Assembly: GCF_012027495.1 (NCBI RefSeq)
Contig: NZ_SNUK01000003.1
Location: forward strand, 310,001-374,000
Length of the DNA: 64,000 nucleotides
DNA from: Thermococcus sp. JdF3
GTDB taxonomy: Archaea > Methanobacteriota_B > Thermococci > Thermococcales > Thermococcaceae
Reading direction: 5' to 3'
Positions 2,114 to 61,112 of this stretch are shown here, piece by piece (position 1 is the first letter of the stretch; each line of letters begins with the position of its first letter). The translations under genes were made by a program, and so were the position numbers. The notes beneath the pieces were generated by a model that saw only the letters and a list, made by a program, of their open reading frames with translations, searched no databases and was not told where the DNA came from.

Positions 2114-3052
2114 ATGTCCACTTACATCATCGAGACTGAGAAGCTCACCAAATTCTTCGGCAGGATGAACGTTGTGTATCATCTCAACCTGAAGGTTCCT
2201 AAAGGTGCAGTCTACGGCTTTCTCGGCCCCAACGGCGCCGGAAAGACCACCACAATAAAGATGCTTACCGGGGCGCTGAAGCCGACCTACGGCGAGATAA
2301 GGATTTTTGGCCTGGACATGCCGAGTGAGAGGGTTGAGATAATGCGAAAGGTCGGCTATATGCCCGAGAAGCCCCTTGCCTATGAGGACATAACGATTTT
2401 CGAGTTCCTGACCTATATGGGCCGTCTCTTAGGTCTTCCCAAGGAGGAGGCCGTGAAGCAGGCGAGGGAGCTGATGGCCTACACCGGAGTTGGAAAGCTG
2501 GCCTTCAACAGGATACGGGAGCTCTCAAGCGGTCAGAGGCAGAGGGTTACTTTTGCCATGGCCCTCCTTGGGAACCCTGAGCTTCTAATCCTCGACGAGC
2601 CGACGAGCAACCTCGACCCCCTCGGGAGAATGGAATTCATCGGCAGGGTTTTGGAACTGGCCAAGGCTGGAAAGACCATCTTCATAAGCTCACACATAGT
2701 CAGCGAGATAGAGAGGATGTGCAACCACGTCGGCCTGATTAAGGACGGCCAGCTCATCGAACAGGGGCGCGTTAGAGACCTGGTGAACGTCGAGGGGACA
2801 GATTACGACGTTGTTGTCTCGGACAACGGGAAGCTCCTGGAATTCCTGAAGGACAGGGTTTACGTGAGGGAGGCATGGGAAGAGGAGGGAATCCTCCGAG
2901 TGAAGCTCGACGAGAGGTTCGCGGAGCGGTTCTTCGTTGAGCTACCCGCCTTTCTGGCCAAAGAGGGACTCGCCCTCAAGCTCTTCAAGTCCCACACGAG
3001 TCCGCTGGAGAGGATCCTGATGAAGCGCTTCAACGTGGGGTGGAAGGAATGA
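2114..3052 (+). CDS. ABC transporter ATP-binding protein
   Basis: This 312-residue nucleotide-binding subunit powers an ABC-2 type transporter. Walker A is GPNGAGKTT (about residues 38-46), the ABC signature is LSSGQRQR (about 139-146), Walker B is LLILDEP, and a switch histidine follows in ISSH. A C-terminal extension of about 90 residues follows the NTP-binding domain, as in daunorubicin/Nat-type exporters. A TATA-like CTTATTTATC lies upstream and ATG 2114 follows GGGTGTTGAG. The stop codon overlaps the start of the permease gene (ATGA), so the two subunits are co-translated. The substrate cannot be read from the sequence. Confidence 0.9.
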   Translation: MSTYIIETEKLTKFFGRMNVVYHLNLKVPKGAVYGFLGPNGAGKTTTIKMLTGALKPTYGEIRIFGLDMPSERVEIMRKVGYMPEKPLAYEDITIFEFLTYMGRLLGLPKEEAVKQARELMAYTGVGKLAFNRIRELSSGQRQRVTFAMALLGNPELLILDEPTSNLDPLGRMEFIGRVLELAKAGKTIFISSHIVSEIERMCNHVGLIKDGQLIEQGRVRDLVNVEGTDYDVVVSDNGKLLEFLKDRVYVREAWEEEGILRVKLDERFAERFFVELPAFLAKEGLALKLFKSHTSPLERILMKRFNVGWKE

Positions 3053-51048: not shown

Positions 51049-51732
51049 TCACTGGAGCTCCATAACGGCCTCAGTGTAGGTGCTCGGGGTGGTGAACTCT
51101 ATAACACCGGGAGCGCCGAACTCCGGAACGACCTGACCGGTTATCTTGATTCCCGGCTTAATACCGTAGCCAAAGACACCGGTATTCTGGTCGGTTCCAA
51201 CCTTGACGGTGAGGACAACGAGATCTCCCTGGCTGAGGGTCGGGTAGTCGTCGCTGAGGCTACTGTCGGAGTCCTGGAGGACTATGATACCAAACTCGGT
51301 GGCGTTGTTTACTATGTTACTCCACGCGGTTTGGGTGGTGTCAAAGATGTCCGCAACAGGGCCTGTGGTGAAAGCGTCGTTAGTCTCGCTGGGGCCACCT
51401 TTGTACTTCAGAACAGCCTCAAGAACACCGTTGCTGAGAACAAGCTTGGTGCTACTGAGGTCAATTCCGGCGCTGCCGGCGTTCGGGCTGACGTAGATGG
51501 CAAGCTGCTGGATGTATTCAAGGCTACCGTTCGCCTTACCAACAACCCTCTCGACCTGTATGCCGCTGGCAACCTCCTGGGTGGTCTCCCTGCCCGTGCT
51601 GGAAGCCTTCTGCTGCAGGAAGCCGCTCGTGTTGATCAGCACGGCCGCCGCAACAGCGGCAACCAGCACCATGGCAATGAAAACTATCAAGGTCCCAATA
51701 CCAACCGCACCTTTCCTTGTCCTGGCTTTCAT
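51049..51732 (-). CDS. arlB1: Archaellin ArlB1
   Basis: A 227-residue archaellin, promoter-proximal and so probably the first made. Signal MKARTRKG precedes [25 protein letters not shown]; mature Ala at +1. Globular domain with [14 protein letters not shown] and end [21 protein letters not shown] 51732 is preceded by CCAGGGGGTGCATGGAGA. The five archaellins share the helix but differ in the surface, suggesting filament segments of different composition. Confidence 0.93.
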
Positions 51733-51780: not shown

Positions 51781-51839
51781 AAATATAAAGGCCTTTTTTG
51801 TTCTTAGTAGTGTAGGTGGTTGTGTAGGTACATGTGTAG
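51781..51839 (-). promoter_or_regulatory. Archaellum promoter with three 12-bp-spaced CTACACA motifs
   Basis: On the minus strand TATA is CTTTATATTT (51781-51790). Upstream are three copies of a 7-mer: CTACACA (51833-51839), CTACACA (51821-51827) and CTACACT (51809-51815), each exactly 12 bp apart, on nearly the same face of the helix. The pattern resembles the repeated TACA-type sites bound by the archaellum activator EarA in Methanococcus maripaludis. The EarA-like gene is at 56538-56867. Confidence 0.7.
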
Positions 51840-51876
51840 GTACTGACCACGATGGCCCCGACGAACCATCGCCAAG

Positions 51877-51886: not shown

Positions 51887-51917
51887 GGGACAAGGGCATA
51901 AGGTTACGGTGATTCCC

Positions 51918-54900
51918 ATGGGAGGAAGGCAGAGGGCAATAGTGCTGGGATTGATACTGTTGCTCCTCGGCAGTGGTATCCCCACCGTCATGGGTGTGAG
52001 TTACGCATACAGCGAGGCCAGCAACGTCCAGCTCTTCCTCTGGCCGTCAGGCAGACTCGTCGCCCCCAACCAGACGGTGACGATTGCGGTCGTGCTCTGG
52101 AAGCCCGGCGAGGGTGGAGTAGCGAACGCAACGGTAACCATCGAGGTCGAGGACAGGCTCTACAACGTCACCACCAACGGGGACGGCTTCGCGAGCCTGA
52201 ACCTGACGTTCACTGAGGAAGGTGGCTATGAAGTCAGGGCCCTCTACGGTGAGGTCTCAACGGGCACGTGGATTGACGTTAAAGCCGTCCCCGAGTACCT
52301 TTTCATCGAGAAAGACCTCGAGCTCCAGGTCAACAGGGCATACACCGTCGAGTGGAACCTCGTAACTCCGTACCTTTTCACGCCCTACAGCGGAACCGTC
52401 AACGTGACGGTGCTCTTCAACGACAGAGCGGTTGAGAGCCGTCCCATCAACGTCACCGGTGGAAAGCTCAGGCTCAGCCTTCAGTTCAACGAGACCGGAA
52501 CTGGTTCGATACTATTTGACGGCAGGACGGCTTCATACTTTGAGGTTCGCAGCAGGGTAATCCTCGCCAAGCTCATGGCACCGGACAGGGCATACGTCGG
52601 CCAGAACGTGACGGTTCACATCCTGGCCCTGGACGCCGGAAGAAACACCCCCTACAGTGGAAACGTCACGGTTAAGACTATCTCCTTCAACGGCACCGAG
52701 GAAACCGTTGACAGATTCACCATCGAAATCGAGAACGGCTACGGTAACTTCACGGTAACCGTCCCCGAATGTGACCATCTGACTGTCTCTGTGGAGCTGG
52801 GCAGGGGGCCGAGCCACACAATATGGGTCGAGAGGCCCGCTCAGGCACCCACGAATGGGGGCAACGGCAACGAGACGCCGCTAATATTCACGATAACTCC
52901 AGACAGGGTGCTCGCCGAGCCCGGGCAGAGCATCTCATTCGTCGTCAACACGACCAGAGAGGGAACCTATAACATGACCGTCACCTGGTACGGCTGGAGG
53001 TTCACGAGCTGGGACGTCTGGGACGGGGAAACCAATACCACCCTCGTGACCTTCAACGGCACCAAGAGCGTCCTCAAGAGGATAAAGGTCCCTGAGTGGG
53101 CCTACTACGGCGAAATCAGGATTGGAAACGCAGTGGCCAGAGTTTACACCCTAAGGCCGAGCGTCTGGGCCGACGCCTGGGTTAACCTCACCTACAGCCC
53201 GGAGATAGGGCTCGAGACAGGAGACGTCATAATGGTCAGTGGCGACCTCAAGAACAAGACCAAGGACTGGTTCTTTGAGTGGGAGGAGTTTTACAGGGGT
53301 CTCGTCAACGAGACCGTGCACATATTCACCCCCTGGGGCGTTAAGGCCGTGAAGACCGGGGAGGATGGCAGGTTCAGCGCCAGCATTCCGGTTCCTTCGG
53401 AGAGACTGCCCGACATGGTCTGGGACAGGCACCCGGAGGTTCTCGTCATCCACAGGTCGGGAGCGTACGCGGACAGGACCGTTGACACGCCAAGGGGCAG
53501 GGTCTTCGTCAACATCACCTCCGACGGGGTCAGGATAAACGTTGAACCCGACAGCGACTGGAGGTATTACCCGAACCTGACGACCCCAACGGTGGTCGAG
53601 TTCGGCCAGTCCTTTGACTGGTACTACATCGGGAACGTCACATCCGTCTACGTCAACTCGACGAACGCCACGATTCCGGGCAACATAAGCGCCGGGGTTT
53701 ACATGTTCAAGATCCTCCCCAACCACTGGCTCTGCCTCAAGGAGCCACATGGGACCTCCTGCGGGGCGGGAAGCCACAGCACCGAGAGGGTTTACTACGT
53801 GACGGGCGGGCTTGAGCTCCCGGACAGCGCGACCTACAGCGGTGGGGAGCTCGAGGTTCCGATAAAGCTCCCGGGAAGGGGCGTGTTCTACTACTCCTAC
53901 GACTCAAACGGCCAGAGGCACTACGGGGTAGGGTTCACAGATGAGAACGGAAGCGGAGTCGCCAGGATAGAGGTAGGGAACCTCCCGCTGGGAGGACCGG
54001 AATGGCTCATCATCAAGTTCGGCTTTGTGAGCGACAGGGGATCCCTCTTTGACATTAACTGGAACCTAATTGTCAGAAACGAGGCTGACGTCCTTCCGCC
54101 GGCGATTACCGCGGACGTAACGCCGGAGGTTCAGGAGGTAGGAAAGAACGTGACGGTTTACATAGACGTGAGGGACGATGGAAAGCTCAGGCAGGTCAAC
54201 TTCACGATAACGAACGTGACCGACATCATCAGGGCGGAAAGCTTCAACGTATCGACGAGCGGGTTCGTGCACAGGTTCAACTTCACCGTAAGGGGCCTCG
54301 AAGACTACATCCTGAACGTTACGGCGGTTGATGAAGCCGGCCACGTCTCGACCAGGCTGGTCAACTTCTACGGCAAAGCCGTCGAGACGAGGGAGCTCAA
54401 CCTCACCGCCAACGAGACCCACGAGCTCAACGTGGCCAACCAGACCCGGATAGTGGTTGCCCCAGCCCAAAACGAGAGTGTTGCCATGAACATCACCGTC
54501 GCCTCGGCCGTTGAGAACGAGAGCGCGAGGGTGAAGATGACGGCCAAAGGCTACGAAGACCTCAAGTACGTTAAGGTCGAGACCAACGGGACGGTAGAGT
54601 ACTCGTGGGTAATCCTCAACCTGACCTACAGCGACGAGATGCTCAGGAGGCTCGGCATAAGCGAGAACGCCGTGACGCTCCTCTACTGGAACGGAAGCGA
54701 GTGGATTGACCTCAGCAAGCACGTCGGAGAGACAATTCCTGACAACTCGCCCTACGGCAACATAACGGTCTTCGGCTTCGGAAGGGACCCGGTACACAAC
54801 TACGCCTGGGCCAACGTGAGCCACCTCAGCGAGTACAGCCTGGGCGTCATGCTGCCGGACCTGAGGGTGGTCGGGATAAGCGCGGAGAACGCTGTGGCCG

Positions 54901-55472
54901 GGAAGGAGACAGAGGTGAGCGTGACCCTGGTCAACAATGGCGGGGCCGTTGATGGGGAGTTCACGGTGTCCCTCTACGCAAACGACACCCTCGTGAAGAC
55001 CGAGAGGGTCAGCGGGATCGGCGCCGGAGAGGAGAAGACGGTGAAGTTCACGTGGACGCCGGACAAGAGCGGCACCTACATCCTCAGGGCCACCGCAGAC
55101 GGAGATGACGCCATCGTCGAGAGCAACGAGACAAACAACGAACTGTCCGCTGAGGTTCGGGTCACCCCCGCGCCGAAGGTGAGCAAGGGCACAGCGGTCA
55201 CACGTATGAACTACATCGGCTACATGTACTACCACATGCTTTCGAAGAGGTTTGAGGAGCTGTACAACGAGTCCCTGCGGAAGGGCGTGGACAATGAGAC
55301 CCTAACCGCGGCCCTGGAGCACAGGAAGCTGGCCGAGGAGTACTACGAAAAGGCGGAGGAGTTCGGCCCGGTGCTCCAGAACCTCAACAACCCGCAGATA
55401 CTCGCCCCGCTCAGGAGGGCGTACCTGGAGATGCTGAAGGCCGTCAGGATACTGGAAGAGGCCCTCGGATGA
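51918..55472 (+). CDS. Giant secreted CARDB-domain protein, 1184 residues
   Basis: An exported protein of 1184 residues with signal peptide IVLGLILLLLGSGIPTVMG. The rest is beta-rich: several Ig-like or adhesion-type domains, a stretch that contains DVTPEVQEVGKNVTVYIDVRDDG, a region of many N-X-S/T sequons, and a CARDB domain near 970-1080 (DLRVVGISAENAVAGKETEV, then ETNNELSAEVRV). The C-terminal 90 residues are helical and charged, with no membrane anchor or CGP-CTERM signal. ATG 51918 is preceded by GGTGAT. Being divergent from the archaellum operon and near its control repeats, it may be a surface or filament-associated protein; function not established. Confidence 0.72.
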   Translation: MGGRQRAIVLGLILLLLGSGIPTVMGVSYAYSEASNVQLFLWPSGRLVAPNQTVTIAVVLWKPGEGGVANATVTIEVEDRLYNVTTNGDGFASLNLTFTEEGGYEVRALYGEVSTGTWIDVKAVPEYLFIEKDLELQVNRAYTVEWNLVTPYLFTPYSGTVNVTVLFNDRAVESRPINVTGGKLRLSLQFNETGTGSILFDGRTASYFEVRSRVILAKLMAPDRAYVGQNVTVHILALDAGRNTPYSGNVTVKTISFNGTEETVDRFTIEIENGYGNFTVTVPECDHLTVSVELGRGPSHTIWVERPAQAPTNGGNGNETPLIFTITPDRVLAEPGQSISFVVNTTREGTYNMTVTWYGWRFTSWDVWDGETNTTLVTFNGTKSVLKRIKVPEWAYYGEIRIGNAVARVYTLRPSVWADAWVNLTYSPEIGLETGDVIMVSGDLKNKTKDWFFEWEEFYRGLVNETVHIFTPWGVKAVKTGEDGRFSASIPVPSERLPDMVWDRHPEVLVIHRSGAYADRTVDTPRGRVFVNITSDGVRINVEPDSDWRYYPNLTTPTVVEFGQSFDWYYIGNVTSVYVNSTNATIPGNISAGVYMFKILPNHWLCLKEPHGTSCGAGSHSTERVYYVTGGLELPDSATYSGGELEVPIKLPGRGVFYYSYDSNGQRHYGVGFTDENGSGVARIEVGNLPLGGPEWLIIKFGFVSDRGSLFDINWNLIVRNEADVLPPAITADVTPEVQEVGKNVTVYIDVRDDGKLRQVNFTITNVTDIIRAESFNVSTSGFVHRFNFTVRGLEDYILNVTAVDEAGHVSTRLVNFYGKAVETRELNLTANETHELNVANQTRIVVAPAQNESVAMNITVASAVENESARVKMTAKGYEDLKYVKVETNGTVEYSWVILNLTYSDEMLRRLGISENAVTLLYWNGSEWIDLSKHVGETIPDNSPYGNITVFGFGRDPVHNYAWANVSHLSEYSLGVMLPDLRVVGISAENAVAGKETEVSVTLVNNGGAVDGEFTVSLYANDTLVKTERVSGIGAGEEKTVKFTWTPDKSGTYILRATADGDDAIVESNETNNELSAEVRVTPAPKVSKGTAVTRMNYIGYMYYHMLSKRFEELYNESLRKGVDNETLTAALEHRKLAEEYYEKAEEFGPVLQNLNNPQILAPLRRAYLEMLKAVRILEEALG

Positions 55473-55572: not shown

Positions 55573-56526
55573 TCATCTCTTTCTGATGACCATTATGCTC
55601 CTGGCGGGCCGGGTTATCTCGACATCGAAGCCCTCCTCCAGGATAACGTCCCTGATCTCCGCCGCAGAGGGGAAGCCAATGAAGTCCTTGTTGAGGCTCT
55701 CAAAGAACTCGAGGGCCTGAATGTGGGCAAAGGCGTCCCTGAACGGCTCAAGCACCACCATCTTCCCACCGGACTTGAGCGTCTCAAGGGCACCCCTGAG
55801 AACCCTCTCCCTATCCTTGGCGTACTCAAGGACGAAGCTCATGAGGACCACGTCGTACTCGTTAACCGGACGGATGAGCTTTGCGTCCATCTCCTTCAGC
55901 TCAACGGGCAGGTTTTTCATCTCCACCCTGGCCCTCGCTATCTCCAGAAGCGCCGGAGAGTAGTCGATTCCCAGATAGAAGCCATTGTAGCCTATCATCT
56001 CGGCGAACTGGACAGGAGACACCGAGCCGCAACCGATGTCGAGCACGTGCATACCCGGCCTTAGGCCAGCGGCCTGGGCCATGGCGTTGCGGTACACCGC
56101 GGAGAAACGGGTGCTCATGCGCATGTCCCAGAAGTCGGCGTCCTTATCGAAGTCCATGAGAACGTGCGGATGGACCGGGGTTATGAAAGCGTAGTCAACC
56201 ATGCGGTATATCTCCTCCAGAACGGGCACCCAGTCATGAATCAGGAGGTCGTACCTCTCACCTGGGACATGCACGGTGTACGTAAAGCCGTTGAGGTGAA
56301 GCCTGCCGCCCTTTTCGGCCACTATTCCCAGGCGCTCCAGCGTGTCGATAAAGTCCAGAAGAAGGCGCCTGTTGGGCAGGCCCACGTGGTCAACCAGCTC
56401 CTGCACCGTTGGGGCCCTGGAGAGCAGAGGAAATATGCCGTGCTTTGTTCCGAGTCCGATTATCTGGAGCACGGAAAACTTGACCATCTGCTCGATGTTG
56501 GCATCGACGATATCGGCGGGATTCAT
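55573..56526 (-). CDS. AdoMet-dependent methyltransferase next to the archaellum cluster
   Basis: A 317-residue protein: an N-terminal winged-helix region (about 15-90: FSVLQIIGLGTKHGIFPLLSRAPT, then TLERLGIVAEKGG) and a methyltransferase domain (VLDIGCGSVSPVQF at about 161-174, then YLGIDYS, ALLEIARARVE). This layout is that of the O-methyltransferase-like group. Similar methyltransferase genes are reported beside Pyrococcus archaellum genes. Target unknown; archaellin or glycan modification is possible. ATG 56526 follows GAGGTGTGG, 11 bases after the earA stop; the pair is an operon. Confidence 0.8.
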   Translation of the reverse strand: MNPADIVDANIEQMVKFSVLQIIGLGTKHGIFPLLSRAPTVQELVDHVGLPNRRLLLDFIDTLERLGIVAEKGGRLHLNGFTYTVHVPGERYDLLIHDWVPVLEEIYRMVDYAFITPVHPHVLMDFDKDADFWDMRMSTRFSAVYRNAMAQAAGLRPGMHVLDIGCGSVSPVQFAEMIGYNGFYLGIDYSPALLEIARARVEMKNLPVELKEMDAKLIRPVNEYDVVLMSFVLEYAKDRERVLRGALETLKSGGKMVVLEPFRDAFAHIQALEFFESLNKDFIGFPSAAEIRDVILEEGFDVEITRPARSIMVIRKR

Positions 56527-56537
56527 GGCACCACACC

Positions 56538-56867
56538 TCACATGAACCTCCGGTAGTAGCGATAGTACTCCTTAAGATAATCCACGACCTTTTTACCGTA
56601 GTCCGTCAGACGGTAGTACTTAAAGCCATTGTTTGAGACTTCCTCCACAAGACCCAGGTAAACAAGGGAACTCTCTCCGTTGTACCTGTTACCCAAACCA
56701 ACCAGTGCCCCCCTAACGTTGGATGGATCAGAACTGACGACCCTGGCGATCTCAGAAAGGTACGTCGCTGACGGATATATTTCGCTCAGGTACATCAGTA
56801 TCTTCTTCCTGAGTTCGCTACGATGAAGGGAGCGCAACACCTGCGGATCCACGATTACTGTGTCCAT
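56538..56867 (-). CDS. earA: EarA-like archaellum transcriptional regulator (winged helix)
   Basis: A 109-residue protein with a winged-helix DNA-binding fold: IVDPQVLRSLHRSELRKKILMYLSEIYPS, then TYLSEIARVVSSDPSNVRGALVGLGNRYN, with the recognition helix in the middle, and a C-terminal DYGKKVVDYLKEYYRYY segment. Size, sequence style and genomic position match EarA, the euryarchaeal activator of archaellum genes. ATG 56867 follows GGGAGGGGGGAGT. It precedes the methyltransferase gene in the same transcript. The motif upstream of the arl and che promoters is the likely target. Confidence 0.72.
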   Translation of the reverse strand: MDTVIVDPQVLRSLHRSELRKKILMYLSEIYPSATYLSEIARVVSSDPSNVRGALVGLGNRYNGESSLVYLGLVEEVSNNGFKYYRLTDYGKKVVDYLKEYYRYYRRFM

Positions 56868-57244
56868 ACTCCCCCCTCCCAAAGTCGGTGGTTCCAGGAT
56901 CAATCACTGTGATTATAGCAAGGCAGCCACTGAAACCCCTCTGGATATCAATGCCTCCATGTGCAGGGGATGGTTGTAGCCCCGTATATTAGATGTGAGT
57001 TGTAGAATATATAACGTTTTTGGTTTATCCCTGGGTATAATTCCGCATAAATTTGCCCCATTTGTAGAATCCCCACCCAAAAATTGTATAAATCGGGCTA
57101 ACGGACAAAGAATCCAATTGATTGAAAATTATCCAACAGACGGCAATCCGGACAAAGGTTTTCGCCCCCTCCAGCCGGAGAACATTCATAAAATCTTAAA
57201 TACCATCGAAACAAATTGGAGTACGTTGAAGTCAGGTGAGAGTA
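56868..57244. promoter_or_regulatory. 377-base divergent intergenic region between earA and the coiled-coil gene
   Basis: No gene is evident. Near the earA start, a perfect palindrome AATCAC-T-GTGATT (56902-56914) overlaps a minus-strand TATAAT, a possible self-operator. Further right are the TATA elements GAATATATAACG (about 57004-57015) and ATTGTATAAATC (about 57083-57094), and TCTTAAATACC (57194-57204), the last giving a start near 57230, about 15 bases before the ATG at 57245. TTGTAG occurs three times (near 56969, 57000 and 57061), a weak relative of the CTACAC motif. The middle part is AT-rich and non-coding. Confidence 0.5.
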
Positions 57245-58779: not shown

Positions 58780-60006
58780 TCACCTCCGGGCACTCCTAAC
58801 GTTTTCCAGCAGGGTTCTGGATTCGTCTATAGATTCCTCAAGGGCCTTAAGACCCTTTCGTATTTCATCCAAACGCAGCTGGAGCGTTGAGAGGAAGTCC
58901 ACGAGGGGCAGCATCACGTCCGAGATGTCGTTCTGGATGGCGTAAACACCGTCTATGGTGTCCATGAGCATCTGCACCGACTGGGCCTGTCCGTCTATGC
59001 TGTCCGAGAGGTCTTTTATCATGCCCGCGGTCTCATTGGCGCGCCTGGCGATGTCGTCAAAGGCGGCTATGAGTTCCTGAACGGCATCCTTTATTTCCTC
59101 CGTGACACGGAACTCCTGTTTGATGGAGCTGACGACGGTGTCTATGCTCTCCTGCATATCCCTGATGAGTTCGGTTATCTGGTCGGTGGACTTCTTGGAC
59201 TGGTCGGCGAGCTCACGGATGTTCTCTGCAACAACCGCGAAGCCCCTGCCGTGCTCCCCGCTCCTGGCGGCCTCAATGGCGGCGTTGAGTGCCAGAAGGT
59301 TGGTCTGGTCAGCGATGCCCCCTATGACCTCAACTATCTCCCCGATGCGCTTGGAGTGCTCGACGAGAATGGAGACCGCCCGCTCCATGTCCTGGTTAAC
59401 CTCTGTTATGCTGGCCACGTTCAGGGCAACGTTGTCGGAAATCTTCTTACCCCTCTCGGCCATGTCAGCAGTTTCGAGGGCGTAGTCGGTCAGCGCCTGG
59501 GCCTGCGTGTTCATCTCCTCTATCCCCGCGGTGAGGGTCTGGATGTAGTCCCCCAGCTCGGCGATGCTGGAGCGCTCCCTCTCCACCAGACTGGCCAGGG
59601 AATCGGGATCCGCCGAGGCATCCATCTCCAACATGGGGAGGAGGGAGGAAATCTTTTCCCGGACGTTCTCAAGATTTTTCAGGGCGGTATCCATCCCCTC
59701 GAAGGAACAGGGCTGTGAAACAGTCACCCTGCGTTTTCTTAGGGCCTCAGCCTTGTGTTCGATGGAGATGAGACGGGCTGCAATTTCCTCATCGATGCCC
59801 CCTACATCGGGATGTCTTCCCTCCAGGATGTCCTCAACCGCCCCGAGAATCCGGAGGGAGTTATCCCTCGTTTTTGAGACGTACGCGCCAACGATTGCGG
59901 ATGCACCCAGACCCAGAATGAGACCCACGGATGGAGCCACCAGGGTGCCGGCGAGGGTTATCAGAGGGATTGAGCCAACTGCCGTTATGGCAACGATGCG
60001 GTTCAC
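58780..60006 (-). CDS. Methyl-accepting chemotaxis protein without a sensor domain
   Basis: A 408-residue chemoreceptor. Two adjacent membrane helices lie near residues 3-40 ([35 protein letters not shown]), with hardly any exterior loop. A linker (about 45-170), then the signalling coiled coil, whose tip [37 protein letters not shown] interacts with CheA/CheW. With no ligand-binding domain it probably reads the membrane or cytosol, for example temperature, energy or partner proteins. Start chosen at GTG 60006 with GGGAGGTG upstream; GTG 60015 is closer to the AG run. It precedes cheW. Confidence 0.9.
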
Positions 60007-60050
60007 TGGCCACACCTCCCAGCAGCACTATTTAACCATGGAGACAGGGA

Positions 60051-60072
60051 GATAAAAGAGTTTCGCATGTAG
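60051..60072 (-). promoter_or_regulatory. Chemoreceptor-cheW promoter with one CTACAT motif
   Basis: On the minus strand TATA is CTCTTTTATC (60051-60060). CTACATG (60066-60072) lies upstream, its first base 15 nt before TTTTAT. The same 15-nt distance is seen at cheR. A second AT-rich element (TTAAATAG, about 60029-60036) is nearer the gene but would be too close to give a leader. Confidence 0.55.
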
Positions 60073-60135
60073 GTAATAACCCTTAATACGCGTTACAATA
60101 ATAACCGGGGAAGTCGTAACAATATACCTATGCAC

Positions 60136-60169
60136 CTACACAACCATCTACACACAAAGATTTTTTATG
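60136..60169 (+). promoter_or_regulatory. cheR operon promoter with two CTACACA motifs
   Basis: CTACACA at 60136-60142 and 60148-60154, 12 bp apart as in the archaellum promoter; the seven bases between (ACCAT context) are also almost the same as there (ACCAC). TATA is TTTTTTATG (60161-60169), 15 nt from the start of the nearer motif. The transcript would start near 60190, within or just after a stem CAAAAGC/GCTTTTG (60171-60190), about 60 bases before cheR. Confidence 0.65.
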
Positions 60170-60248: not shown

Positions 60249-61112
60249 ATGATGGATGTTAAGGATCCCGGCTATATAAGGATCAAGCGGGAGCTGTTCC
60301 GCCACCTCAAAGTTAGTAGTGACGCCTACAAGGACACGTACCTCGTGAGACGCATACGGGCAAGGATGAGGAAACTGGGAATCGCAAGCTACACCGAGTA
60401 CTACAGACTTATAAAGGCAAACAGGAGCGAGCTCGACGAGCTCCTGCTGACCGTGGCCATCAACGTCACGGAGTTCTTCAGAGACCCGGTGGTCTGGAAA
60501 ACCCTCGAAAAGAAAATCCTGCCCGAGCTGGTCGAGTACAAGCGGGAGATTCACAGCAATTCCCTCAAGATATGGAGTGCGGCCTGCTCAACGGGACAGG
60601 AGCCGTACTCGATCGCCATGACACTGTACGAGACGCTGGGCGAAAACCTCGACGGATTCCGGGTCAGCATACTGGCGACGGACATAGACAGGGAGGCCCT
60701 GTCGGTGGCCATGAAGGGAGAATACCCCGTGGATGTCATTGAGAAGCAGATACCCAGGAGCATGATACCGAAGTACTTCACCCGCGTAAGCGACGAGCGG
60801 TACAGGGTCTCACCGAAGATAAAACGCCTGGTCAAGTTCCGGCAGTTCAACCTCTTCAGCACCACGTACCCGAAGGGGTTCGATATTATATTCATCCGCA
60901 ACGTGCTCATATACATAAAAAGGGACGCCCAAGAGGAGATATTTGCCAAACTTTATGATTCGCTGGAGGATCACGGGTATCTCGTACTCGGCAAGACCGA
61001 GACGATCCTCGGCAATGCCGCCAGGATGTTTAGGTTGTATGACCTCGTTGCAAGGATCTATCGCAAAAATCTGGAGGTGAAAAAACATGGCAAAGGTTTT
61101 GGTGGTGGATGA
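60249..61112 (+). CDS. cheR: Chemotaxis protein methyltransferase CheR
   Basis: A 287-residue AdoMet-dependent enzyme that methylates glutamates on chemoreceptors. N-terminal helical domain (YLVRRIRARMRKLGIASYTEYY), then the catalytic domain with IWSAACSTGQEPYSIAM, ILATDIDREALSVA, and FIRNVLIYIKRDAQ. The start ATG 60249 follows GAGGTAA; the next codon is also ATG. The 3' end overlaps cheY by 26 bases, showing tight operon packing. Confidence 0.95.
   Translation: MMDVKDPGYIRIKRELFRHLKVSSDAYKDTYLVRRIRARMRKLGIASYTEYYRLIKANRSELDELLLTVAINVTEFFRDPVVWKTLEKKILPELVEYKREIHSNSLKIWSAACSTGQEPYSIAMTLYETLGENLDGFRVSILATDIDREALSVAMKGEYPVDVIEKQIPRSMIPKYFTRVSDERYRVSPKIKRLVKFRQFNLFSTTYPKGFDIIFIRNVLIYIKRDAQEEIFAKLYDSLEDHGYLVLGKTETILGNAARMFRLYDLVARIYRKNLEVKKHGKGFGGG

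Follow-up and report, generated by a model that had tools for sequence, protein, structure and literature searches.

Upstream of the archaellum (arl) operon in the 64-kb window, which is the whole stretch of DNA analysed here, three short repeats follow one another at a fixed distance. The question raised by this locus is which protein would read them and whether it would act on the archaellum alone. How archaea coordinate the building of the archaellum with the production of the chemotaxis system is a question posed in Stöckl 2023 (PMC10665913). The comparison of this locus with its relatives makes it probable that the arl repeats are an EarA array and that EarA activates a motility-plus-chemotaxis regulon in chemotactic Thermococcaceae.

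Three-box array at the arl promoter

Direct reading of the sequence showed three exact copies of CTACAC with a 12-bp period on the minus strand (51810-51839). The plus strand reads AGTGTAG at 51809, TGTGTAG at 51821 and TGTGTAG at 51833, that is, CTACACT, CTACACA and CTACACA on the minus strand, which is also the strand of the first archaellin gene of the arl operon (51049-51732; PF01917, 1.1e-41). The three EarA-type boxes, each of them ACCTACAC, are located at 51810-51817 (box 1, nearest to the arl promoter), 51822-51829 (box 2) and 51834-51841 (box 3), and were defined by sequence reading and a pattern scan. The triple pattern, allowing up to three mismatches, matched three times within the window, against a mean of 0.03 and a maximum of 1 in 100 dinucleotide shuffles, and the exact triple occurs only once in the genome. 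Apart from the array itself, the matches are its register shifted by 12 bp and a separate paired array upstream of cheR (60124-60153). Both the direct reading and the shuffle control thus bear out the three CTACAC-type repeats with an exact 12-bp period that the earlier note had described. Cooperative binding at this predicted array is suggested by the strict spacing.

The core promoter of the operon, recognised by eye on the minus strand (51782-51799), consists of a weak A-run BRE, AAAAAAGGCC, and a TATA box, TTTATATT. The end of box 1 lies 10 nt upstream of AAAAAAGGCC-TTTATATT, and its first base is 28 bp upstream of the TATA element. The BRE position is occupied by a run of six A, and box 1 is likewise separated from AAAAAAGG by 10 nt. 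Other arl loci present the same BRE/TATA layout.

These features are those published for EarA sites of Thermococcales, for which Stöckl 2023 (PMC10665913) gives the consensus A(C/G)(C/G)TACA(T/C), with as many as three copies side by side and a distance of about 9-11 nt to a weak A-run BRE, and describes EarA as essential for archaellation in Pyrococcus. The window array fits in box consensus, in its three adjacent copies and in BRE distance, and the regulator proposed is the same. Hence, the three repeats are a known type of predicted EarA binding array in Thermococcus-like archaea, of which the window provides a further example. The original finding is sound, and for the arl promoter it was mostly known already (Stöckl 2023). 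Methanococcus maripaludis likewise carries several short sites, four in this case, just upstream of the weak BRE of its archaellum promoter (Ding 2017, PMC5512572); the Methanococcus consensus is given as TACATA (Stöckl 2023, PMC10665913). The available text of Ding 2017 describes no chemotaxis targets of M. maripaludis EarA.

The search of relatives' arl promoters proposed in the earlier note found boxes at all 49 promoters examined, 30 as strict pairs and 19 in looser or palindromic form. At some of them the box is inverted, e.g. ACCTACATATGTAGGT; this palindrome replaces the direct pair at L313, L314, L317-L319, L321, L324, L325, L327 and L329, and suggests dyad binding there.

The array also lies upstream of a large surface protein (CARDB) gene found by profile search, which diverges from arl (51909-55472, plus strand) and has a TATA box about 36 bp downstream of the array. 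This proximity is what could be said for an array serving chiefly the surface protein. Nevertheless, a relative of this gene is found beside the arl promoter in only 3 of the 49 arl loci (the window counted), and the boxes are present at 49 of 49, so this reading is very unlikely and the gene was rejected as the main target. The position noted earlier was correct, but the neighbour appears to be a local accident, and the surface protein gene is probably a bystander of the array.

The earA gene and its locus

An EarA-like gene had been noted 5 kb from the repeats, and it proved to be a true member of the family. The earA gene (56538-56867, minus strand) encodes 109 aa from a conserved start, within a longest ORF that extends to 56903, and its product matches the EarA profile (PF07381, 8.6e-34) with 115.7 bits versus a cut-off of 22. 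Its identity to 43 other aligned EarA proteins is 68-99%. Together with the published site consensus, this neighbour supports the reading of the repeats as an EarA-type array.

In the window, the arl promoter is at 51782 and earA at 56538, and earA adjoins arl at the majority of the 49 loci. The usual order in relatives is earA, methyltransferase, arl promoter. The window's methyltransferase gene, assigned by a profile match (55573-56541, minus strand), overlaps the end of earA, and its counterpart lies between earA and arl in most relatives.

A structure model of EarA showed helices plus two strands, arranged as would fit a winged helix-turn-helix. Its mean pLDDT of 57.3 is of low confidence, too weak for the model to serve as evidence of this fold, and it was dropped. 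A sequence search of solved structures (PDB) with EarA gave no match. Autoregulation was also considered and rejected, as no EarA-type box was seen in the window stretch upstream of earA (56841-57110).

Boxes at the chemotaxis genes of the window

The arrays at chemotaxis promoters form a larger pattern that was absent from the earlier note. In the window, paired EarA-type boxes ACCTACAC and ATCTACAC, 12 bp apart, were located by the pattern scan in the cheR promoter (60134-60153, plus strand), where the site is kept in relatives; a degenerate third register begins at 60122. A candidate TATA element, TTTTTTAT, follows 15 bp past the start of the proximal box (60161-60168, plus strand), and cheR itself (60249-61112, plus strand; PF01739, 2.4e-56) is the first gene of the che cluster. 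A CheR profile search of the genome contigs returned this type of gene at one locus.

A methyl-accepting chemotaxis protein (MCP) gene diverges from cheR (58780-60015, minus strand; PF00015, 6.7e-39). A single EarA-type box, ACCTACAT, faces it (60067-60074, minus strand), 17 bp before mcp TTTTATCT, and such a single mcp-facing box was also found in several relatives. Moreover, the paired box occurs near other MCP genes of the window genome.

Family-wide survey of paired boxes

The paired box was surveyed as YCTACAYNNNNNYCTACAY in 61 Thermococcaceae genomes, with the reversed pattern as control; the phylum-level search covered few genomes beyond this family. The pattern gave 134 matches versus 15 for its reverse. 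The 134 matches merge to 121 distinct places, which were classed by their neighbouring ORFs, and 89 of them are located just upstream of motility or chemotaxis genes: arl (30), cheR (12), an operon of an oxygen-sensor-like ODP and an MCP (18), and other MCP genes (29). Two places of this last class (L007 and L153) adjoin genes cut by a contig end, and their MCP was recognised by eye.

The remaining places are inside ORFs (25/121) or in other intergenic stretches (7/121). Taking all strict matches as genuine sites was rejected on account of those 25, many of which are in a sugar-nucleotide transferase; the ORF at one of them (L142) may be spurious. Such matches indicate that some pairs are coincidental, and this is what favours attributing the repeats to chance. 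That explanation is hardly credible for the arrays under study, considering the shuffle expectation of 0.03 in the window and the conservation of the boxes at the same promoters throughout the family.

Concerning the receptors, a strict pair lies no more than 2.6 kb away on the 5' side of 57 of the 141 MCP domains listed (those of at least about 96 bits). Chance would place 0.6% (0.0061) of the places in MCP 5' zones, about 0.6 of the 91 in MCP-bearing genomes, and a formal probability would be meaningless because the genomes are related, so that their places do not count as independent. Among the 84 MCPs with no strict pair, 23 lie on the same strand as cheR up to 11 kb downstream of it and are possibly part of the che operon, and another 12 adjoin cheR and diverge from it. 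Upstream regions were fetched for 40 of the 84; apart from one of G016, the MCPs located downstream of cheR or next to it were set aside, as were those of G036, G042 and G046 and three from G000.

Box-to-TATA geometry and orientation

Distances were counted between the start of the proximal strict box and the TATA-like element. At arl promoters they are 28 bp (n = 13), 40 bp (n = 11) or 52 bp (n = 6), and at cheR promoters 15 bp (n = 4) or 27 bp (n = 4), with no element found in the other four. Forward-oriented MCP genes present 15-17 bp in 17 of 19 cases and no TATA-like element in the remaining two. The ODP promoters, where the boxes are reversed, show 15-16 bp in 18/18, and small MCPs with reverse-oriented boxes show about 60 bp in 8/10, which is off the 12-bp series. 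Overall, the distances are mostly about 16, 28, 40 or 52 bp, in 12-bp steps except for the small MCPs. Such steps suggest that bound protomers would keep one face towards the promoter machinery.

The ODP of the window genome belongs to PF19583. The arrangement of a gene of this family followed by a soluble MCP gene is seen at L005 (1568-2335) and is conserved in its relatives, always with the boxes in reverse orientation.

Held-out matrix analysis

A matrix trained on 73 arl boxes alone was run on promoters without strict matches and on all 27 clear cheR loci, from which the weak CheR match of G005 was excluded. An array was detected at 25 of the 27 cheR loci, among them one (L228) visible only from the mcp side. 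In G003 and G004 the matrix found no boxes at cheR, though the arl promoters of both genomes carry them. The 40 further regions comprised five ODP operons, four of which score at least 9, and 35 other MCP regions, 15 of which score at least 9 and 20 below 3. As regards specificity, 377 other promoters, taken from these loci and from the window, gave 11 scores of at least 14, all of them in sequences with a strict pair, and several of these 11 share their intergenic stretch with a divergent target.

All 12 examined members of one receptor class, MCPs of about 468-500 aa, score below 3 and are among the 20 low-scoring regions (L274, L278, L285, L288, L292, L294, L296, L298, L304, L305, L307 and L311). 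This class may lie outside the regulon, with a function apart from the archaellum. One member, L296, is from G028, where archaellin was not found and the EarA-like match is only a distant, long one.

Predicted regulon

Considering these results, a single mechanism can be proposed. EarA protomers would bind the ACCTACA(C/T) boxes spaced 12 bp apart at arl, and the promoter-proximal box would put EarA beside TFB at the weak BRE, leading to the start of transcription. An array in the same 12-bp register would also drive the che operon (from cheR), several chemoreceptor genes, and the operon of the oxygen-sensor-like ODP and soluble MCP. A single regulator for swimming and steering is probable because 12-bp arrays also precede many chemotaxis genes of related genomes, and EarA would probably be its master activator in chemotactic Thermococcaceae. 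What was observed here at the chemotaxis promoters is the presence, conservation, placement and geometry of the arrays, from which we infer binding and activation by EarA. Several observations count against this reading: the receptors and the two cheR loci that lack boxes, the boxes in genomes without a detected EarA, the opposite orientation at ODP and one class of small MCP genes, the latter also off the 12-bp series, and the low-confidence EarA model.

Control of motor and steering genes by a single master regulator is also the logic of bacterial flagellar-chemotaxis regulons such as those of FlhDC and sigma-28, whose proteins and promoter machinery are, however, unrelated to the EarA system. 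In archaea, the sites in the available text of Stöckl 2023 are reported at arl only, whereas the arrays described here also occur at cheR, MCP and ODP-MCP promoters. That work calls for the transcriptome of an EarA knockout (PMC10665913), and the present analysis supplies concrete targets, a site model and a predicted geometry for the EarA regulon.

The 23-bp motif of T. kodakarensis

Villain 2021 (PMC8643681) described a 23-bp motif common to those T. kodakarensis genes with the strongest rise upon gyrase expression and a fall in histone mutants, carried by fla, che, TK0156, TK2147, TK1139 and TK1605. In its available text the function of the motif is termed unclear and EarA is unmentioned. 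This motif reverse-complements to ACCTACATAAVCASVTACACAAA, the paired box, and has two matches in the window (51807-51829 and 60134-60156), each with three mismatches. It was known from one species; here it extends family-wide and is assigned to EarA as a predicted site. The literature search, which did not reach most subscription journals, found no paper joining the motif with EarA.

The T. kodakarensis fla, che, MCP and ODP genes change expression together (PMC8643681, PMC8155482), and Sanders et al. 2021 found that the motif-carrier genes, along with TK1606, are less expressed in a histone mutant. In that study TK1605 carries the annotation metallo-beta-lactamase hydrolase and adjoins an MCP; judging by this annotation, it fits the ODP-MCP operon.

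Villain 2021 speculated that the motif acts through DNA topology, and the paired box could be a topology or chromatin element with no dedicated activator, given that its T. kodakarensis genes rise with gyrase and fall in histone mutants (PMC8643681, PMC8155482). This seems improbable, since the motif coincides with the arl EarA site described by Stöckl 2023 and varies hardly at all in sequence or TATA register, as is typical of protein sites; moreover, topology could work via EarA. A transcription factor would thus be an ordinary cause for a motif formerly linked to DNA topology. The new elements of this work are the extension of the regulon to motility and chemotaxis and the identification of this orphan motif as the predicted EarA box. 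We lean slightly towards the fullest form of the proposal, a master EarA regulon with boxes in both orientations and registers of about 16, 28, 40 and 52 bp, which would include the ODP-MCP operon, leave the receptors of about 468-500 aa outside, and explain the response of T. kodakarensis fla and che genes to supercoiling and histones.

Boxes in genomes without detected EarA

Four genomes in which neither EarA nor archaellin was detected have kept boxes: G040 (at cheR; 96% complete, 5 contigs), G094 (at ODP and MCP; 96% complete, about 90 contigs), and G027 and G042, both incomplete (<80%). These cases, together with the helicase-side paired box of the EarA-less G045 and the variation of orientation and TATA distance among target classes, are compatible with EarA acting only at arl and another winged-helix regulator that prefers CTACAY reading the chemotaxis boxes. 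We regard this as unlikely, although it is the alternative to be taken most seriously. The arl and che promoters share box and spacing, and the matrix built from arl boxes alone finds the cheR sites. The low completeness of G027 and G042 weakens these two cases, and earA and arl occupy one locus, therefore a single assembly gap would lose both, as could have happened in G040 and G094; the presence of G040 in only 5 contigs counts against such a gap. EarA reading both kinds of promoter is still the preferred interpretation. Nine other EarA-less genomes (G010, G051, G056, G058, G084, G088, G089, G101 and G105) presented no strict pair outside ORFs.

The helicase-side paired box occurs in five strict-match loci, one of them in G045, which shows that the box is not exclusive to motility. 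In these loci (L101, L104, L119, L131 and L150, near 3001-3019) it is conserved and intergenic, with an uncharacterised small gene on one side, a DUF5658 gene on the other and the helicase gene nearby, and the window genome has a looser version of it (L012, 1501-1520). Furthermore, G050 and G037 have a paired box close to an HTH gene and a prefoldin-like gene, and G047 has a similar one (L098, L145 and L142, near 3001-3019).
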